Source: Bacteroidota bacterium (GTDB lineage: Bacteria > Bacteroidota > Rhodothermia > Rhodothermales > JANQRZ01). Taken from it: DNA of 64,000 bases. A program made the position numbers and the translations under genes. Below, one piece after another: positions 37,100 through 44,631 of this stretch (its first letter is position 1; each line of letters begins with the position of its first letter). The stretch lies in assembly GCA_038746285.1 (NCBI GenBank), contig JBCDKT010000017.1:1-64000 (forward strand), written 5' to 3'. The notes below the pieces were generated by a model that ran no database searches, was not told the origin of the DNA, and saw only the letters and a list, made by a program, of their open reading frames with translations.

Positions 37100-38973
37100 G
37101 TCCTCCGAAGCCGTCGTGTGATCTTGCCCGTCCACGCCTCGCCCTCGTCGAAGCCGAGGAGGTGTGCGAGCGCGAGGTAGCCGACGCCGTAGAGCGCGAG
37201 GATCGCCGCGCCGTAGGCCCAGACCGGAAACGGCTCGACCGGGACGAGCCACCGTACGAGGCTTGCCGGGACGGCTGCCAGGAGCGCTACGCCGAGCATC
37301 TGCACCGTCCGCCCGACGGGTAGGCGGAAGGCGTCGACCTCGGCCCGGAGCGCTGCGCGCAGCCGCCACAGCTCGACCCACGCCCCGACGCTCGACCCGA
37401 GCGCGAGGCCGACCGCGCCGATCCGCAGTGGCCGCCCCTCGGCCGGAATCCCGACGAGCTCCGGTACGGAGTACCGGTCCAGCGCGAACATCAGCCCCGC
37501 ACCAATCGTCGCCGAGACCGCGACGCGGACGACCGCGATCCGGGCCGGCGTCTTGGTGTCGTCGAGCGCGTAGAACGCGTTCTGGAGAAGCCGCGAGACG
37601 GTCGTCGCGAGGAGGCCGAGGGCGTAGGCCCCGAGGACGAAATAGACGAGGTAGGTGTCGTCGAGGTCGAACGAGCCGGTCTGGTAGAGGACGGCCACGA
37701 CGAGGAAGCCGAAGATGAGAAAGCCGACCACGCTCGGCGCAATCATAAACAGGATCTGCCGGAGCGAGCGGTCGATCCGGCCGAGGAACGCCTCGGGGCG
37801 GGCACCCGAGAGGCGCGACAACTCGGGCAGCTCGCTCGCCGCGACGCTCATCGCGAAGAGCGAGACCGGGAGCGTGTAGAGCACCTGCGCGTACGTCAGC
37901 GCCGAGATCGCGCCGACGGCGGCGAACCCGGCGAGGAGCAGGTCGAGGTAGCCCGAGATCTGGTAGACCCCGCGCCCGGCGAGGACCGGCAGGAACGCGT
38001 TGATGCTCTGCCGGACGCCCTCGACTTTCGTGGAGAACGACGGCCGGAAGCCGCGGATCACGCGGAGCACCGCCGGAAGCTGGACCCCGAACTGGAGCGC
38101 CCCGCCGACGAGCGCGCCCCACAGCCCGGCGAAGAGCAGCCGGTTGAGGGCGTCAACCGGGATCACGTCGAGCTCGTCGAGCGCCGTCGGGTCGTCGAAG
38201 AAGGTGAACCCGGCCCAGATGAGCGCGCCGATGATGGCGGCGTTCCAGAAGACCGGCGCGACGTACGGCAGGAAGAACTTGCGGTGGCTGTTGAGCACCC
38301 CGAGCGCCCACGCGCTGAGGACGAGGAGCCCCGTCATCGGGAACGTGACGCGGACGGCCTGCACGGCGAGGCGGAACCGGTCGACCGCGATCTCGCCCGC
38401 GACGACCTTCTCGGCGTCGCCGAGCCAGCCCGGCTGGAGGAGCGTCGTCAGCGGTTCGGCGAGGAGGATGCCGAGCGTGACGAGCACGGCGACGAGCGCG
38501 GTGAGCAGCCCGAGGATGGCCCCGGCGAACCGGCCGGCGTCTTCGGGCCGCCCCTGCTCCAGCATCCGGCTGTAGATCGGGATGAACGCCGCCGAAATCG
38601 TCCCCTCGCCGAGGAGGTTCTGCAGGAGGTTCGGCGCGCGGAGGGCAACGCGGAACACGTCGGCGTGGGGCCCGACCCCGAAGAAGTAGCCGATGGCGCG
38701 CTCGCGGACGAATCCGATCAGGCGGCTCAGCAAAATCCCACCGGCGACGAGGCCAGCCGCGCTCTCGCGCTGCTCTTCGGGCGGCGTGGCTCCGGTCCTC
38801 GGTGCCTTGCCTGCCGATTCGAGCCTTGCTTCGGCTTCGAGCGCCGCCTCGGTCGAGCTTTCGGGCGTGGCGTCGGCGGTGGGCGACGTGGCCTGGTCCG
38901 CCTTCTCGCTCTCCGGCACCGGGTCCGGCGGCTCGGCCTCGTCCAGCGGTCGGGCGTCCTCGTTCGGGTCCAT
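37096..38973 (-). CDS. murJ: Lipid II flippase MurJ
   Basis: 625 residues. The first ~70 residues are an acidic, low-complexity extension; the MurJ core begins with AGGILLSRLIGFVRERAIGYFFG and continues with ALRAPNLLQNLLGEGTISAAFIPIYSRM, both family hallmarks. About 14 membrane helices follow. MurJ flips lipid II for peptidoglycan synthesis and is essential. The gene is immediately followed by a glycerate kinase. Its first 93 bp are duplicated upstream, beyond a toxin-antitoxin pair. Confidence 0.95.
   Translation of the reverse strand: MDPNEDARPLDEAEPPDPVPESEKADQATSPTADATPESSTEAALEAEARLESAGKAPRTGATPPEEQRESAAGLVAGGILLSRLIGFVRERAIGYFFGVGPHADVFRVALRAPNLLQNLLGEGTISAAFIPIYSRMLEQGRPEDAGRFAGAILGLLTALVAVLVTLGILLAEPLTTLLQPGWLGDAEKVVAGEIAVDRFRLAVQAVRVTFPMTGLLVLSAWALGVLNSHRKFFLPYVAPVFWNAAIIGALIWAGFTFFDDPTALDELDVIPVDALNRLLFAGLWGALVGGALQFGVQLPAVLRVIRGFRPSFSTKVEGVRQSINAFLPVLAGRGVYQISGYLDLLLAGFAAVGAISALTYAQVLYTLPVSLFAMSVAASELPELSRLSGARPEAFLGRIDRSLRQILFMIAPSVVGFLIFGFLVVAVLYQTGSFDLDDTYLVYFVLGAYALGLLATTVSRLLQNAFYALDDTKTPARIAVVRVAVSATIGAGLMFALDRYSVPELVGIPAEGRPLRIGAVGLALGSSVGAWVELWRLRAALRAEVDAFRLPVGRTVQMLGVALLAAVPASLVRWLVPVEPFPVWAYGAAILALYGVGYLALAHLLGFDEGEAWTGKITRRLRRT
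38881..38973. repeat. Direct repeat, copy 1: murJ 5' coding end
   Basis: 93 bp, the first 31 codons of murJ. It matches 39525-39617 base for base over the 66 bp next to the start codon (38908-38973); the distal 27 bp differ at five positions. After the ATG the two copies diverge at once. Confidence 0.9.
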
Positions 38974-39009
38974 GAATCGGGCGGCGGCAGGAGGGGGAAC
39001 AGGCTGCGC

Positions 39010-39264
39010 TTACTCGTAGATGTCTTTGCGATGACCCACGTCGAGCACCGTGACTACGCGAACCACGTCGGCGATCTCGTAGATCACCCGGTAGCGACCG
39101 ATCCGAATGCGCCAGCCCTCGCGCCCGACCAGTTTCTTGCAGCCCGGTGGCCGCGGGTCAGTCCCCAACGCACGGACAGCATCGCGGACCCGCTCGTAGT
39201 CCCGTTCCGGCAGCTTCGCGAGCGACTTAGCGGCGCGCCGGAGGATCTCGACGCGGTAGCTCAC
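39010..39264 (-). CDS. RelE/ParE family toxin
   Basis: 84 residues from GTG at 39264, overlapping the antitoxin stop (GTGA). Typical RelE-fold parts: YRVEILRRAAKSLAKLPERD, the basic GREGWRIRIGRYRVIYEI and the C-terminal VVTVLDVGHRKDIYE. Members cleave mRNA on the ribosome or poison gyrase. Followed by murJ after 36 bp, so murJ may be read from the toxin-antitoxin promoter. Confidence 0.9.
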   Translation of the reverse strand: MSYRVEILRRAAKSLAKLPERDYERVRDAVRALGTDPRPPGCKKLVGREGWRIRIGRYRVIYEIADVVRVVTVLDVGHRKDIYE

Positions 39265-39470
39265 CCGGCGCCCCGGTTCTGTTCGATCTCGCGCGTTGCC
39301 TCGTCGAACGGGATCGCCTCGTCGCCGCTCGCTTTCGCCTCGTCGTAGGCGCGGATCGAATCAATTTCTTCGACGGCGTCGAGCAATTGCTGGTAGCGGT
39401 CGAGGCCGATGAGTACGGCGATGCGCTGCCCGGCGTCATCCGTCACGAACTGGGTTTCCGTAGTCGTCAT
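39261..39470 (-). CDS. Antitoxin of the RelE-type pair (Phd/RelB-like)
   Basis: 69 residues. TQFVTDDAGQRIAVLIGLDRYQQLLDAVEEID is the Phd/YefM-like beta-strand and helix start, and the acidic C-terminal (ASGDEAIPFDEATREIEQ) is where such antitoxins wrap the toxin. It likely represses its own operon. Located directly before the toxin gene, as usual. Confidence 0.85.
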   Translation of the reverse strand: MTTTETQFVTDDAGQRIAVLIGLDRYQQLLDAVEEIDSIRAYDEAKASGDEAIPFDEATREIEQNRGAG

Positions 39471-39497
39471 GGCCCTTCTTTGCTTTTGGGTCTCACG

Positions 39498-39617
39498 TCA
39501 CCATGTGGCTGAGCGTTCCGTCCTGGGCGACGCAGCCTGCTTCGCCTTCTTGCTCTCCGGCACCGGGTCCGGCGGCTCGGCCTCGTCCAGCGGTCGGGCG
39601 TCCTCGTTCGGGTCCAT
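39498..39617 (-). pseudogene. murJ N-terminal remnant, copy 2
   Basis: From ATG at 39617 the frame reads MDPNEDARPLDEAEPPDPVP, identical to the MurJ N-terminus, then drifts and stops after 39 residues (TGA at 39498). It is the second copy of the 93-bp repeat (39525-39617). Its A overlaps the stop of the upstream DUF5615 gene. It looks like the original murJ start left behind when the toxin-antitoxin cassette arrived. Confidence 0.85.
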
Positions 39618-39949
39618 CAGCGGAGCGAGAGCAGGGTGACGGTAGGATCAGCACCGAGCGCCTGAATGGCGTCCGCATTCTGACGCAGCAAATGCTCGAG
39701 GTCTTGCGTCGAGCAATTGCCGAGCTGCACCCAGATGATACGAGGAGCATCGGGAAGTAGGAGCCGCAAGTCGTCGAAGTCGGCGTCCTTCGTTACGATG
39801 GCAAAGCCTTCTCGCCGAGCAAAGGCTACGATCTCCCGATCATCGGCTCGGTCGAGATCCAGCGCTGCGACGTGTGCCGAATTGGGGAAGAGATCGGCGA
39901 GGGAAGAGGCGAGGCGAGGCGAAAGGTTCTGATCGAAGAGGAGCTTCAT
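39617..39949 (-). CDS. DUF5615 PIN-like toxin
   Basis: 110 residues. MKLLFDQNLSPRLASSLADLFP, then the acidic DADFDDLRLLLPDAPRIIWVQ with ATKDADF-type residues, is the PIN-like fold of DUF5615 proteins. They pair with DUF433 antitoxins. D6, D76 and D79 are candidate metal ligands. Encoded 73 bp after the DUF433 gene. Predicted RNase toxin. Confidence 0.85.
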   Translation of the reverse strand: MKLLFDQNLSPRLASSLADLFPNSAHVAALDLDRADDREIVAFARREGFAIVTKDADFDDLRLLLPDAPRIIWVQLGNCSTQDLEHLLRQNADAIQALGADPTVTLLSLR

Positions 39950-40022
39950 CGGAGCTTGCTGTCGGGCGGCGGTTTGGGTCTGCCTCTGTTGCGACGCAGC
40001 TTGTGCCCGGCTGCTCTTCAGT

Positions 40023-40244
40023 TCATACCGTAACGATCTTCGTCCGCTCTCGCTCTGCCGCGTAGCTCAGCGATGCTAACACGTCCTCCCGCGTCAGGTA
40101 CGGGAAGTCGTCCAATACCTCCTCGACACTCATCCCCGAGGCGAGGTAGCTGAGCACGTCGTAGACGGTGATCCGCATCCCGCGAATGCAGGGCTTGCCG
40201 CCACGCTTCCCCGGCTCGATAGTGATGATGTCTCGGTAGTCCAT
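40023..40244 (-). CDS. DUF433 antitoxin
   Basis: 73 residues from ATG at 40244. IITIEPGKRGGKPCIRGMRITVYDVLSYL and the helix-turn-helix SVEEVLDDFPYLTREDVLASLSYA are diagnostic of DUF433 (VapB-like, winged helix). It precedes a DUF5615 toxin gene. An upstream in-frame ATG at 40268 exists but would add unlike residues. Confidence 0.88.
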   Translation of the reverse strand: MDYRDIITIEPGKRGGKPCIRGMRITVYDVLSYLASGMSVEEVLDDFPYLTREDVLASLSYAAERERTKIVTV

Positions 40245-40325
40245 CGTTGTCCTCGCCGCGTCCTGCAATGTAACCCCGGCGGTGCGTACCGGTTCACAGG
40301 CCGGTTCTTGCGCTTAGGCCCCGAT

Positions 40326-40550: not shown

Positions 40551-41015
40551 TTACTGCGCCAGAGGGGCGGCCCGCGACGGGGCCTCGAAGTCGGCGAACT
40601 CGAAGCCGGGAGCGACGGTACAGCCGACGGGCGCGAACGCCGCCGGGTCATCGACCGTAGCGGCGAAGAAGGTGCCGCCGGGAATGGTGATCTGGAACTG
40701 CTGGTCCGGGACGGCCCGACCGAGGTGAAGCTGCGCGTAGGTCCCTGCCGCGCCGAGCGTATGGAGGGTCAGCGGGCTGCCCTCGCAGAAGTGCCACGTC
40801 TCGTCTTGCCGGACGCGGTGGAAGGCGGAGACCTCGTCGCCCGGCAGGAGGTAGTAGATCGAGGTGGCGAAGGTGCTCGGGCCGTCGAAGCGCTGGAGCA
40901 GGCCGTCCGTCGGGATCGACTCCGCGGCGCGGTAGACCTCGCGGTACCAGCCGCCCTCCTCCGGCGGTGGCTCTAGCCCGAGCGTGTCAATCCAGTGCTT
41001 AGCATCCTGCGTTTG
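40551..41015 (-). pseudogene. DUF985 cupin protein without a start codon
   Basis: The reading frame gives 154 residues that match the DUF985 cupin family from its first conserved word: AKHWIDTLGLEPPPEEGGWYRE, then STFATSIYYLLPGDEVSAFHRV and TVAPGFEFADFE, ending before TAA at 40551. An in-frame TGA at 41016-41018 stands three codons before AKHW, and no ATG, GTG or TTG lies between. The start has been lost exactly where AT-rich DNA begins. It may still be read from ATT, but I call it broken at the 5' end. Confidence 0.8.
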
Positions 41016-41153
41016 TCAGCCAATGTGAGTCGGAAGTCTGTAGTAGAAACCCCAGTTTGTCGTTACAAGACCAGCTTTAAATCAGGCACATCTACATTGC
41101 GCGGGGCAACTCCAATTGAATCGCAAGGAGCAAGTCACTGCAAAGGTTTAGCG

Positions 41154-41797
41154 TCAATGGCAGAGGTACCTTGCTGTGAACACGATATCGTCTATCCAAT
41201 CGTGGATGAGTGCCTGGTGTCGCCCGATGCCCTTACGCATTAGTGCCTGATATGGCCTGAGCGAAGCAGGAATTCCATACTGAGGCATCACATTCATTGC
41301 TGCCTCCTGTGTTCTTTCATTTCTATGTGCAAAATAATTCCTGAACACCGGGAGATCTCCGAAAACTCGCGTGCCACTTGAAAATGCAGACTGGACATCA
41401 GTCAGGTTGGATGCACCAATCAAGCTACAGCTTGTCATTAGCACATTGGGATCATGCCATGCTGGTTCAGTTCTGCGATGCCACGTACCGTCAGACCTCG
41501 GCGTGGCCCACGGGTTAAAATGGACTATCACCTTTCCAATATGGTCGTTGTAGCCAGAGCCTGAAGCACACGCAACTTTCGTCCCAGTAGATGTTAGAGG
41601 TTTTTCAGATATGACATATAGTACGATCTGGAAAAGTTATACCATGTATTTTGTATTTCGATAATTGTATATCCTAATCCAAAACGGCTTCCCCACCAAG
41701 GACTAGTCAGATCAGTTCCCCTGATGATCACCTGAATCTGCCTAAGTCTTCTGCAGCAACTTTTCTCTAAGCTACTAAGTTTAGAAGATGCTCTCAT
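41154..41797 (-). pseudogene. DUF262 partner with HEPN-type RxxxxH motif, frameshifted
   Basis: Two frames make one protein of about 214 residues. The first, from ATG at 41797, reads 67 residues (SRFGLGYTIIEIQNTWYNFS) and stops at TAA 41594. The second frame carries on without a break in sense (TSTGTKVACASGSGYNDHI, then VIVHFNPWATP) to TGA 41154. The switch point is the A5 run at 41601-41605 (CTGAAAAACC); a one-base gain or a -1 slip joins them. The C-terminal half has FRNYFAHRNE, an R-x4-H motif like that of HEPN RNases. It starts two bases after the DUF262 stop. Either a disabled gene, a programmed frameshift or a sequence error. Confidence 0.6.
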
Positions 41798-41799
41798 CC

Positions 41800-42843
41800 C
41801 TAATGCTGCAGCTTGATTCTAGAGCATAGGAACTTGAATCGTGTTTTCCGCGGCCCAATTCTGTTGGTGGCTTTCGAGTTTGCCTCAGTAAAGTCGTTGA
41901 AATCAGTATCTGCCCTCTCCGGTTCAGATAGAACATCGGCAACCTCGCTCAAAGACTGCAGGGTAGCTCCACTGTCGATAACTTGCGGCTCATCTACCAT
42001 GTATTCCTCCTGTAAGCTGTCAAACGGACGCATGTGATGCATTAGCGCCAAGAATAGTGTGTATAGGTTGTAAGGCTTTACAACTGGACTGTTGTGGATC
42101 TCATTCCATTCTAGTAAGTAGTCGAAGGCGCGATCAACCAGAGAAGCATATTCCTCTTTCAATTCAAATAACTTGTCGTGTTCTTTGTAGAAATCATCGA
42201 GCTTAGTATCTGATGCGCTAACAATTCCGTTTTCAGCGGCATCAATTATTTCTGTCAATAGATTGGCGTCTTTCATTCTACTTAGCTGACTCTCTTTGAA
42301 AGCGCCAATATCTTTCAATGATTGAGCGTAACGCTCAACCAGCCTTACAATGAACCATTTAAACTCTCCTTGAAAGGTAGCATGACGTAACTCTTGTCTG
42401 TTAAGGGGTACATTATATGAGTTTATTCTTCTGAATACCTGTCGTATCTGCTCCATTGTCGCACCAACGAATAAATCCAGACTCAACTGATACTCTAGGA
42501 ATGCTGCCTGCTGATCCTCTTCGAGGTTTGAAAAATTACGTCCTGAGAACTCGCTGTCGCCGGTTATTTTAAATTTGTCTTTTGAGAACTCGAAGATGGT
42601 CATGCTACGCTGCTGCCCATCCACTATCTCCTTTATAGTCTTTCTGCTTCTTAGATCAGTCTTTTGATATAGAGAAAGCTTTGGTACGGGAAAACCAAGG
42701 AGGATAGTGTCGATTAGATATGACTTGGCCTTGACCGGCCATACCTTGTGCGAGCGCTGGTAGTCGCGGTTAATGACAAGCTTCTCCTCTTCCATTTCTT
42801 CACAGTAGGAAGCAATCGTCGTCGTCGTAGTTATAACTTTCAT
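41800..42843 (-). CDS. DUF262 domain protein, putative defence nuclease component
   Basis: 347 residues from ATG at 42843. The N-terminal LVINRDYQRSHKVWPVKAK and the active-site-like IVDGQQRSMTIFEF (DGQQR at 75-79) define DUF262, a ParB/Srx-related NTPase-nuclease domain found in GmrSD type IV restriction and in BrxU-like proteins. The rest is helical (VFRRINSYNVPLNRQELRHA is the second DUF262 signature). A DUF1524 HNH domain, present in GmrSD, is absent here; the coupled HEPN-motif gene may supply the effector. Promoter likely in 42844-42900. Confidence 0.85.
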   Translation of the reverse strand: MKVITTTTTIASYCEEMEEEKLVINRDYQRSHKVWPVKAKSYLIDTILLGFPVPKLSLYQKTDLRSRKTIKEIVDGQQRSMTIFEFSKDKFKITGDSEFSGRNFSNLEEDQQAAFLEYQLSLDLFVGATMEQIRQVFRRINSYNVPLNRQELRHATFQGEFKWFIVRLVERYAQSLKDIGAFKESQLSRMKDANLLTEIIDAAENGIVSASDTKLDDFYKEHDKLFELKEEYASLVDRAFDYLLEWNEIHNSPVVKPYNLYTLFLALMHHMRPFDSLQEEYMVDEPQVIDSGATLQSLSEVADVLSEPERADTDFNDFTEANSKATNRIGPRKTRFKFLCSRIKLQH

Positions 42844-42957
42844 AGTCTGCTTGCAAGGTGACAGCCTCACCGGCTCGTTTCGACCTCTCTTGAGATTGGT
42901 GCGAGGCAGTGATTGTTGTCGCTCGTTAATGCGGAAGCGATAATACTGACTACGCCC

Positions 42958-44631
42958 ATGAAGATTGCCCTTTGCCAGATCAACCCCACCGTCGGCGACC
43001 TCGACGGCAACGCGGATACCATCGTCGCCTTCGCCCGCCGCGCGGCCGAGGCCGGAGCCGACCTCGCCGTCTTCCCCGAGCTGTGCGTCGTCGGCTACCC
43101 GCCGCTCGACCTGCTGGAGAGCGAAGCGTTCCTCGACGATGTAGAGGCGACCATCGAGCGGATCGCCGTCGCCGTACCGCCGGAGATCGGGGTGCTGATC
43201 GGCGCGCCGGTGCAGAACCCGAGCGCAATTGGCAAGCGGCTCTTCAACGCGGCGCTGCTGTTTGAGGGCGGCGAGCAGGTCGCCGAGGTGCGGAAGGTGC
43301 TGCTCCCGACCTACGACGTGTTCGACGAGGTCCGCTACTTCGAGCCGGGGACGGCGTGTGAGCCGGTCGTTTTCCGTAGCGTCCGGCTCGGGCTGCACGT
43401 CTGCGAGGACATGTGGAATAACGAGGAGCACGCCGCCGTCCACCTCTACGCCGCCAACCCCATCGACGCCCTCGCCGACGCCGGGGCCGACCTCTACGTC
43501 AACATCTCGGCCTCGCCGTTCGCGCTCGGCAAGCACGAAGCGCGCAACGCCGTCATCGCCGAGAGCTGCCGCGAGCACGGTCTGGGGTTCGTCCTCGTCA
43601 ACCAGGTCGGGGCCAACACCGAGATCCTCTTCGACGGCGACAGCCGGGTCCACGACTCGCGGGGCACCCGCATCCTTTGCGCGCCGAGCTTCGAGGAGGC
43701 GCTGCTCGTGTGGGACACTGAAGCGGAGACCGGCCCGTGCCCGATGCAGCACGACCCCATCACCGACCTCCACGACGCGCTCGTGATGGGCATCCGGGAC
43801 TACTACGAGAAAACCGGCGCGTTCGACGGCGCGCTCATCGGTCTCAGCGGCGGGATCGACTCGGCGGTGACGTGCGCGCTCGCGGTCGAAGCGCTCGGGG
43901 CCGACGCCGTCACCGGGATCACGATGCCGTCGAAGTACTCGTCGCCCGGCTCGGTGGACGACTCGCGGGCGCTCGCCGAGAGACTCGGGATCGCCTTCCA
44001 CGAGGTGCCCATCGTCCCGGCGGTCGACGCGTTCGGGACGATGCTGTCGGGTCTGTTCGTGGGGACGGACGAGGGCATCGCCGAGGAGAACGTCCAGTCA
44101 CGGGCGCGGGGCGTGACGCTGATGGCGGTCTCGAACAAGTTCAACAAGCTCCTCCTCACGACGGGCAATAAGAGCGAGATGGCCGTCGGCTACGCGACCC
44201 TCTATGGCGACATGTCGGGCGGCCTCGCGGTCCTCTCCGACGTCTTCAAGCAGCAGGTCTACGCCCTCGCAGAGCACGTCAACGCCCGCGCCGGGCGCGA
44301 CCTCATCCCCCGAAGCACGATCACCAAGCCGCCCAGCGCCGAGCTCCGCCCGGACCAGCTCGACTCCGACTCGCTCCCGCCCTACGACGTGCTCGACCTG
44401 ATCCTCCAGCTCTACATCGAGGAGCTGCTCGACCTCCGCGAGATCGTCCACCGGACGGGCTTCGACCCGGCGCTCGTGGCACGCGTGCTCGGGATGGTGG
44501 ACCGGAACGAGTACAAGCGGCGGCAGGCCCCGCCGGGGCTGCGCGTCTCGGCGAAGGCGTTCGGCCACGGCCGCCGCATCCCGATCGTGATGAAGCGCAC
44601 CCGCTCGCTGCCGAAGGAGACGGAGGCCTAG
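42958..44631 (+). CDS. nadE: Glutamine-dependent NAD+ synthase
   Basis: 557 residues. The N-terminal nitrilase-fold glutaminase has E41 (FPELCVVGYPPL), K113 (VRKVLLPTYD) and C149 (LHVCEDMW). The C-terminal synthetase has the P-loop GLSGGIDSAVTCAL near 297 and TTGNKSEMAVGYATLYGDM. It makes NAD+ from deamido-NAD+ using glutamine. Start is ATG at 42958. Its stop codon overlaps the convergent VOC gene's stop (CTAG). Confidence 0.96.
   Translation: MKIALCQINPTVGDLDGNADTIVAFARRAAEAGADLAVFPELCVVGYPPLDLLESEAFLDDVEATIERIAVAVPPEIGVLIGAPVQNPSAIGKRLFNAALLFEGGEQVAEVRKVLLPTYDVFDEVRYFEPGTACEPVVFRSVRLGLHVCEDMWNNEEHAAVHLYAANPIDALADAGADLYVNISASPFALGKHEARNAVIAESCREHGLGFVLVNQVGANTEILFDGDSRVHDSRGTRILCAPSFEEALLVWDTEAETGPCPMQHDPITDLHDALVMGIRDYYEKTGAFDGALIGLSGGIDSAVTCALAVEALGADAVTGITMPSKYSSPGSVDDSRALAERLGIAFHEVPIVPAVDAFGTMLSGLFVGTDEGIAEENVQSRARGVTLMAVSNKFNKLLLTTGNKSEMAVGYATLYGDMSGGLAVLSDVFKQQVYALAEHVNARAGRDLIPRSTITKPPSAELRPDQLDSDSLPPYDVLDLILQLYIEELLDLREIVHRTGFDPALVARVLGMVDRNEYKRRQAPPGLRVSAKAFGHGRRIPIVMKRTRSLPKETEA

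Follow-up and report, generated by a model that had tools for sequence, protein, structure and literature searches.

Core defence hotspots such as cDHS1 of Pseudomonas aeruginosa hold variable anti-phage genes between conserved genes and have no clear tie to any single mobile element, and scar-free transfer via homologous recombination in the conserved flanks has been proposed for them (PMC10250203). Among described systems, PD-T4-2 consists of a DUF262 protein and a HEPN protein of family PF18735 (PMC9519451, PMC10952713). In GmrSD, BrxU and SspE, proteins with DUF262 are NTP-binding and NTP-hydrolysing regulators of the nuclease acting on modified DNA (PMC10952713), and HEPN RNases carry an Rx4-6H motif (PMC3710099).

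In the window (the whole stretch of 64,000 nucleotides that was analysed), the interval between a DUF985 gene and nadE is occupied by a DUF262 gene and a HEPN-type partner gene. The nearest match among known patterns is the core defence hotspot, and among known systems PD-T4-2. As in a core defence hotspot, the DUF985-nadE slot has different defence-type cargo between the same flanks when the window is set against two relatives, G001 and G002. In contrast to a core defence hotspot, the slot is tiny (0.75-1.94 kb) and known from three genomes, and its DUF985 flank does not appear to be a core gene and is broken in the window and decayed in G002. The cassette resembles PD-T4-2 in combining a DUF262 protein that lacks DUF1524 with a HEPN-type partner, but the DUF262 protein fits the PADLOC NsnA model far better than PD-T4-2_A, and the partner is frameshifted and matches no PADLOC or Pfam model directly. 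The type IV restriction enzymes GmrSD and BrxU (reviewed in PMC10952713) share the DGQQR motif of the DUF262 protein, whereas the cassette has no DUF1524 nuclease domain. An AbiGi-like segment (PF10899) is found in the G001 occupant and its G002 relative, and none is found in the window.

We put a probability of roughly three in four on the reading that an AbiGi-like occupant of the slot was exchanged for the DUF262 and HEPN-type cassette, with the DUF985 start clipped in the process. Such a slot swap would be a small new example of a known event, an ordinary kind of bacterial gene turnover. It would also be a fully bounded replacement of a defence gene with a visible cost, as the DUF985 start is lost and the upstream region of nadE, an essential-type gene, is replaced.

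Edges and probable former occupant of the slot

Three genomes of the family were compared: that of the window, G001 from the same genus, and G002 from a sister genus. The GC content lies between 0.69 and 0.75 as far as 40999 and is 0.45 for 41000-41099, and the low-GC stretch extends to about 42950. Similarity between the window and G001 stops at 40996 in blastn and reaches the D-A codons (41006-41001) at the protein level; on the right it resumes at 42954 against G001 or 42945 against G002. The slot spans from the first DUF985 codons to no more than 13 bp before the nadE ATG (Table 1). The initial annotation had described an AT-rich island whose precise left boundary falls on the DUF985 start codon. 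GC drops from about 70 % to 45 % across 40950-41050, where DUF985 begins, in agreement with that description, and the position at the start codon was borne out, but by sequence comparison the boundary is resolved to about 15 bp (41004-41019) and not to one base. The island is likewise a real cassette with a left edge, but the corresponding site of the relative is occupied by the AbiGi-like gene, hence a replacement is indicated.

Table 1 Coordinates of the features at the DUF985-nadE slot in the window
Feature	Position	Strand	Basis or remark
DUF985 (Cupin_5) coding sequence without start codon	40554..41015	-	premature TAA at 40551-40553
In-frame TGA directly 5' of the DUF985 frame	41016..41018	-	sequence
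Left junction interval, end of G001 homology	41004..41019		blastn and protein comparison
Replaced slot, ~1.94 kb, 45 % GC, flanks ~69 %	41005..42957		GC and alignment
HEPN-type partner, frameshifted near 41606-41611 in a short A-run	41154..41797	-	R-N-x-x-x-H, here RNYFAH
DUF262/GmrSD_N gene, 347 aa, intact, IVDGQQR motif	41800..42843	-	profile search and alignment
Promoter-like TTGTCG-17-GATAAT ahead of nadE	42916..42944	+	from incoming DNA
Right junction interval, ahead of the nadE ATG by 1-13 bp	42945..42957		G001/G002 upstream sequence gone
nadE, glutamine-type NAD synthase, right flank	42958..44631	+	only full copy in genome

Both junctions are equally sharp and scar-free. No target duplication, which the initial annotation had proposed to look for, and no terminal or inverted repeat was found at either slot edge, no integrase or transposase lies within the 1.94-kb slot, and no tRNA is nearby; the locus has neither mark of a site-specific integrative element, as it shows no integration enzyme and no edge-flanking direct repeats. 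Local alignments of the window slot with the slot of either relative did not score above shuffled sequence, and those of G001 and G002 align with each other with a score of 399. The window slot contains no remains of the old AbiGi-like occupant and no copy of the 5' end of either flanking gene.

The order in G001 is DUF985, 31 bp, an unrelated AbiGi-like gene and nadE. This occupant (L014 8186-7614) is an AT-rich gene of 190 aa on the DUF985 strand, read towards DUF985, and matches AbiGi PF10899 with an E-value of 2.6e-7, above the cut-off, through only 59 residues. The same gene lies beside nadE in G002, which is 80.7 % identical to G001 over 2392 bp running through nadE and the AbiGi-like gene. 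About 95 bp of the DUF985 5' end are kept in G002, with a toxin-antitoxin module between this remnant and the AbiGi-like gene. A search of the window's genome did not recover the AbiGi-like gene, which gave weak matches at best among 296 sampled genomes of the phylum.

Of the two flanking genes, nadE is conserved in all three family genomes, and DUF985 is present in 12 of 60 relatives. G001 and G002 share an identical stretch of about 26 bp upstream of nadE, which the window's genome lacks. This sequence was considered as a recombination repeat and rejected; because each of the two relatives has a single copy and the window's genome none, it is regarded as native nadE upstream sequence. The promoter-like element in the window stops 13 bp short of the nadE ATG (window 42900-42958), and promoter-like matches in the region are no more numerous than in shuffled sequence.

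The DUF985 reading frame

The frame belongs to Cupin_5/DUF985 (PF06172, E-value 1.5e-41, 142 bits, positions 2-137 of the 139 of the profile). The DUF985 gene of G001 scores 157.8 bits over the same profile positions and is 88 % identical to that of the window, or 86.5 % over 156 aa at the protein level. The window reads into the frame as TGA-Q-T-Q-D-A-K-H-W, which agrees with the in-frame TGA (41018-41016) and the missing start codon of the initial annotation. ATG, GTG and TTG are absent from the first ~90 codons, because the list of minus-strand open reading frames of at least 60 aa has no entry there. The annotation had expected a relative without the island to reveal the native start, and had held that the same upstream sequence in such a relative would speak against an island; the upstream sequence of G001 differs from that of the window, and its DUF985 opens normally with ATG ATG AAC GAC GCT (MMNDARYWIDALGL).

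At the other end, one extra base near the 3' end in the window leads to the early stop at 40551-40553, and the G001 protein extends for ~14 residues past it (YPEHEAVIRRLTRA). The frame had been described as intact, which holds for the domain but not for the C-terminal tail. With its start missing, a TGA upstream and a premature stop, DUF985 does not qualify as an intact, expressible gene. Because the start is lost and the stop is premature, it is most likely a recent pseudogene rather than a gene with the alternative ATT start that had been suggested, against which the premature stop speaks.

Compared with G001, dN/dS is 0.22 for DUF985 and 0.23 for nadE, and the neighbouring genes span 0.08-0.23; the DUF985 value does not exceed that of nadE, and such rates do not help to judge the fate of the gene. 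Twelve of the 15 polarised amino-acid differences in DUF985 fall on the window branch, and nadE has the same bias (43 to 15). Relaxed selection on DUF985 was considered and dropped (12 to 3 against 49 to 21 in the nadE/ruvA control, Fisher p 0.54); since nadE is biased likewise, the excess on the window branch is not evidence for it.

The DUF262 and HEPN-type cassette

The DUF262 protein matches GmrSD_N in Pfam (E-value 3.9e-17) and, in PADLOC, NsnA (9.8e-38) and PD-T4-2_A (1e-14). DGQQR is invariant across eight aligned DUF262 proteins and reads IVDGQQR in the window. The gene is the only DUF262 gene in the window's genome, and its five nearest relatives among 84,980 scanned species genomes, from Anaerolinea, Alphaproteobacteria, Paracoccus and two unclassified bacteria, have identities of 36-44 %. 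Each of the five is followed, at the corresponding position, by an intact partner (~215-223 aa) with invariant R, N and H, and no DUF1524 nuclease domain was found in the two cassette genes or in the gene pairs of these relatives.

The two halves of the window's partner (41797-41611 and 41606-41157), which lie in different frames, jointly match the complete 217-220 aa partners of relatives. Residues E114, W117, S143, L152, R156, N157, H161 and P185 (numbering of the L043 partner) are invariant in the group, and R-N-x-x-x-H corresponds to the HEPN motif Rx4-6H. The partner subfamily is matched by no model of Pfam or PADLOC. Its profile aligns over 194 columns (probability 94.8 %, E-value 5.5e-8) with partners that accompany more distantly related DUF262 genes; two of these partners hit RiboL-PSP-HEPN PF18735 weakly, below the cut-off (E-values 4e-4 and 1.2e-3). 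The L043 partner, from one of the relatives, was modelled as an almost entirely helical protein (mean pLDDT 83.6), and the model had no match in the PDB with an E-value below 2. Among 395 genomes of the phylum the partner profile was found only in that of the window, which fits horizontal gain; no plasmid copies of the partner were found.

Programmed frameshifting of the partner was considered and rejected, as the five relatives read straight through and an ordinary indel or sequencing error is likelier. Because the frame of the HEPN-type partner is broken, the cassette may be inactive in the window strain unless the frameshift is a sequencing error. The frameshifts in DUF985 and the partner are read from the assembly alone; murJ, nadE and ruvA can be aligned to G001 across nearly their full length with zero frameshifts, and therefore the lesions at the slot are not general assembly noise.

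Proposed route of the exchange, competing readings and neighbouring modules

Under the preferred reading, genomes of this bacterial family would have a slot between DUF985 and nadE that takes up small defence-type genes. The AbiGi-like gene retained in G001 and G002 would have been the ancestral occupant, and the lineage of the window would have swapped it for a horizontally acquired DUF262 and HEPN-type pair. The exchange would have taken everything from the first codons of DUF985 to about -13 of nadE, with loss of the DUF985 start codon and the native nadE upstream region; that the edge falls just there in DUF985 would be due to the old occupant having ended right beside the start codon. Since the relatives hold the AbiGi-like gene there, the content of the slot appears to have been replaced, as opposed to a plain insertion, and parsimony across the three genomes, only two of them relatives, favours replacement in the window rather than gain in both relatives. 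The route was probably homologous recombination in the conserved flanks, as suggested by the same flanks with different cargo, the loss of the old cargo and the lack of an integrase, of repeats and of a target duplication. A donor genome carrying the cassette between these flanks was not found. Judged from its gene families, the cassette would act in defence, with the NTPase/sensor-type DUF262 protein sensing phage and the HEPN-type RNase partner cleaving RNA. The pair occurs in the window's genome, Anaerolinea, Alphaproteobacteria and Paracoccus, and neither Pfam nor PADLOC has a model for its second gene. A wider proposal, which we offer tentatively and hold to be somewhat doubtful, is that the slot is a minimal, enzyme-free defence slot where recombination in the flanks exchanges entire defence cassettes from edge to edge, start codon to start codon, and that DUF262 plus HEPN forms an uncatalogued defence system across several phyla.

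The loss of the DUF985 start can be read in other ways. The gene might still function through a rare start (ATT, ACG or CTG) or internal initiation, and its Cupin_5 domain is indeed complete and frame-true (profile 2-137), with a dN/dS of 0.22 that points to constraint over most of its history. However, the absence of a common start in ~90 codons, the in-frame stop just upstream, the second lesion that truncates the protein and changes at columns invariant in nine other homologues (R to S at 43, L to P at 125, aligned frame) make this quite improbable. The start might also be native and one base out (L/M-T-N-A-D-A-K-H-W), with a small indel and a junction a few bases further upstream. In another frame CTGACAAACGCA gives T-N-A before the D-A codons, which is sensible for the family, and G001 shows AAC GAC GCT at that point, but a start-codon substitution would be required besides the indel, the similarity to G001 is weak there, and T-N-A is found in none of the nine other homologues. 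We consider this start unlikely; under it, DUF985 of close congeners would be expected to begin as ATGACNAAYGCN.

The cassette itself could have arrived by transposition or site-specific recombination, as part of a mobile element that brought its own enzyme for integration, which would suit the sharp edges, the low GC content and the absence of partner relatives from the phylum sample. An integrase or transposase, terminal repeats, a target duplication and a nearby tRNA are all lacking, however, and the old occupant is gone, so that such an arrival is very unlikely. Least probable is an assembly artefact in which a foreign 1.9-kb piece was joined into the contig. The genome is a draft (4.08 Mb in 134 contigs, with 2.6 % contamination), but the contig around the slot is 71 kb long and collinear to its left and right, exactly one gene slot is replaced, and the slot of the relatives holds another AT-rich gene.

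Beyond the exchange of the occupant, several features of the surroundings were recorded. Synonymous divergence from G001 is 0.24 in DUF985 (40554-41003), 0.39 in nadE (42958-44610) and 0.45-0.80 in genes further off; low values beside the slot, here from a comparison of few genes, are a pattern that recombination around it might leave. A ParE/RelB-type toxin-antitoxin module of ~532 bp (39010-39470) lies just ahead of murJ (window 38880-39635), flanked by a 112-nt direct repeat of 88 % identity (38880-38991 and 39524-39635), which consists of the 5' end of murJ. The module is absent from G001. In G002 the same module (81 % identity) adjoins the DUF985 remnant instead, at the 5' end of the latter (L021 4005-4620), with a 23-nt repeat (87 %) of the DUF985 5' end on its far side. 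From these placements the module looks as if it inserts where genes begin and duplicates the beginning of the gene as it does so. Between murJ and DUF985 on the minus strand (window 39617-40268), a DUF5615 (PIN-like) gene, which like its neighbour is absent from the corresponding place in G001, adjoins a DUF433 gene, and the two are likely to form a further toxin-antitoxin pair.
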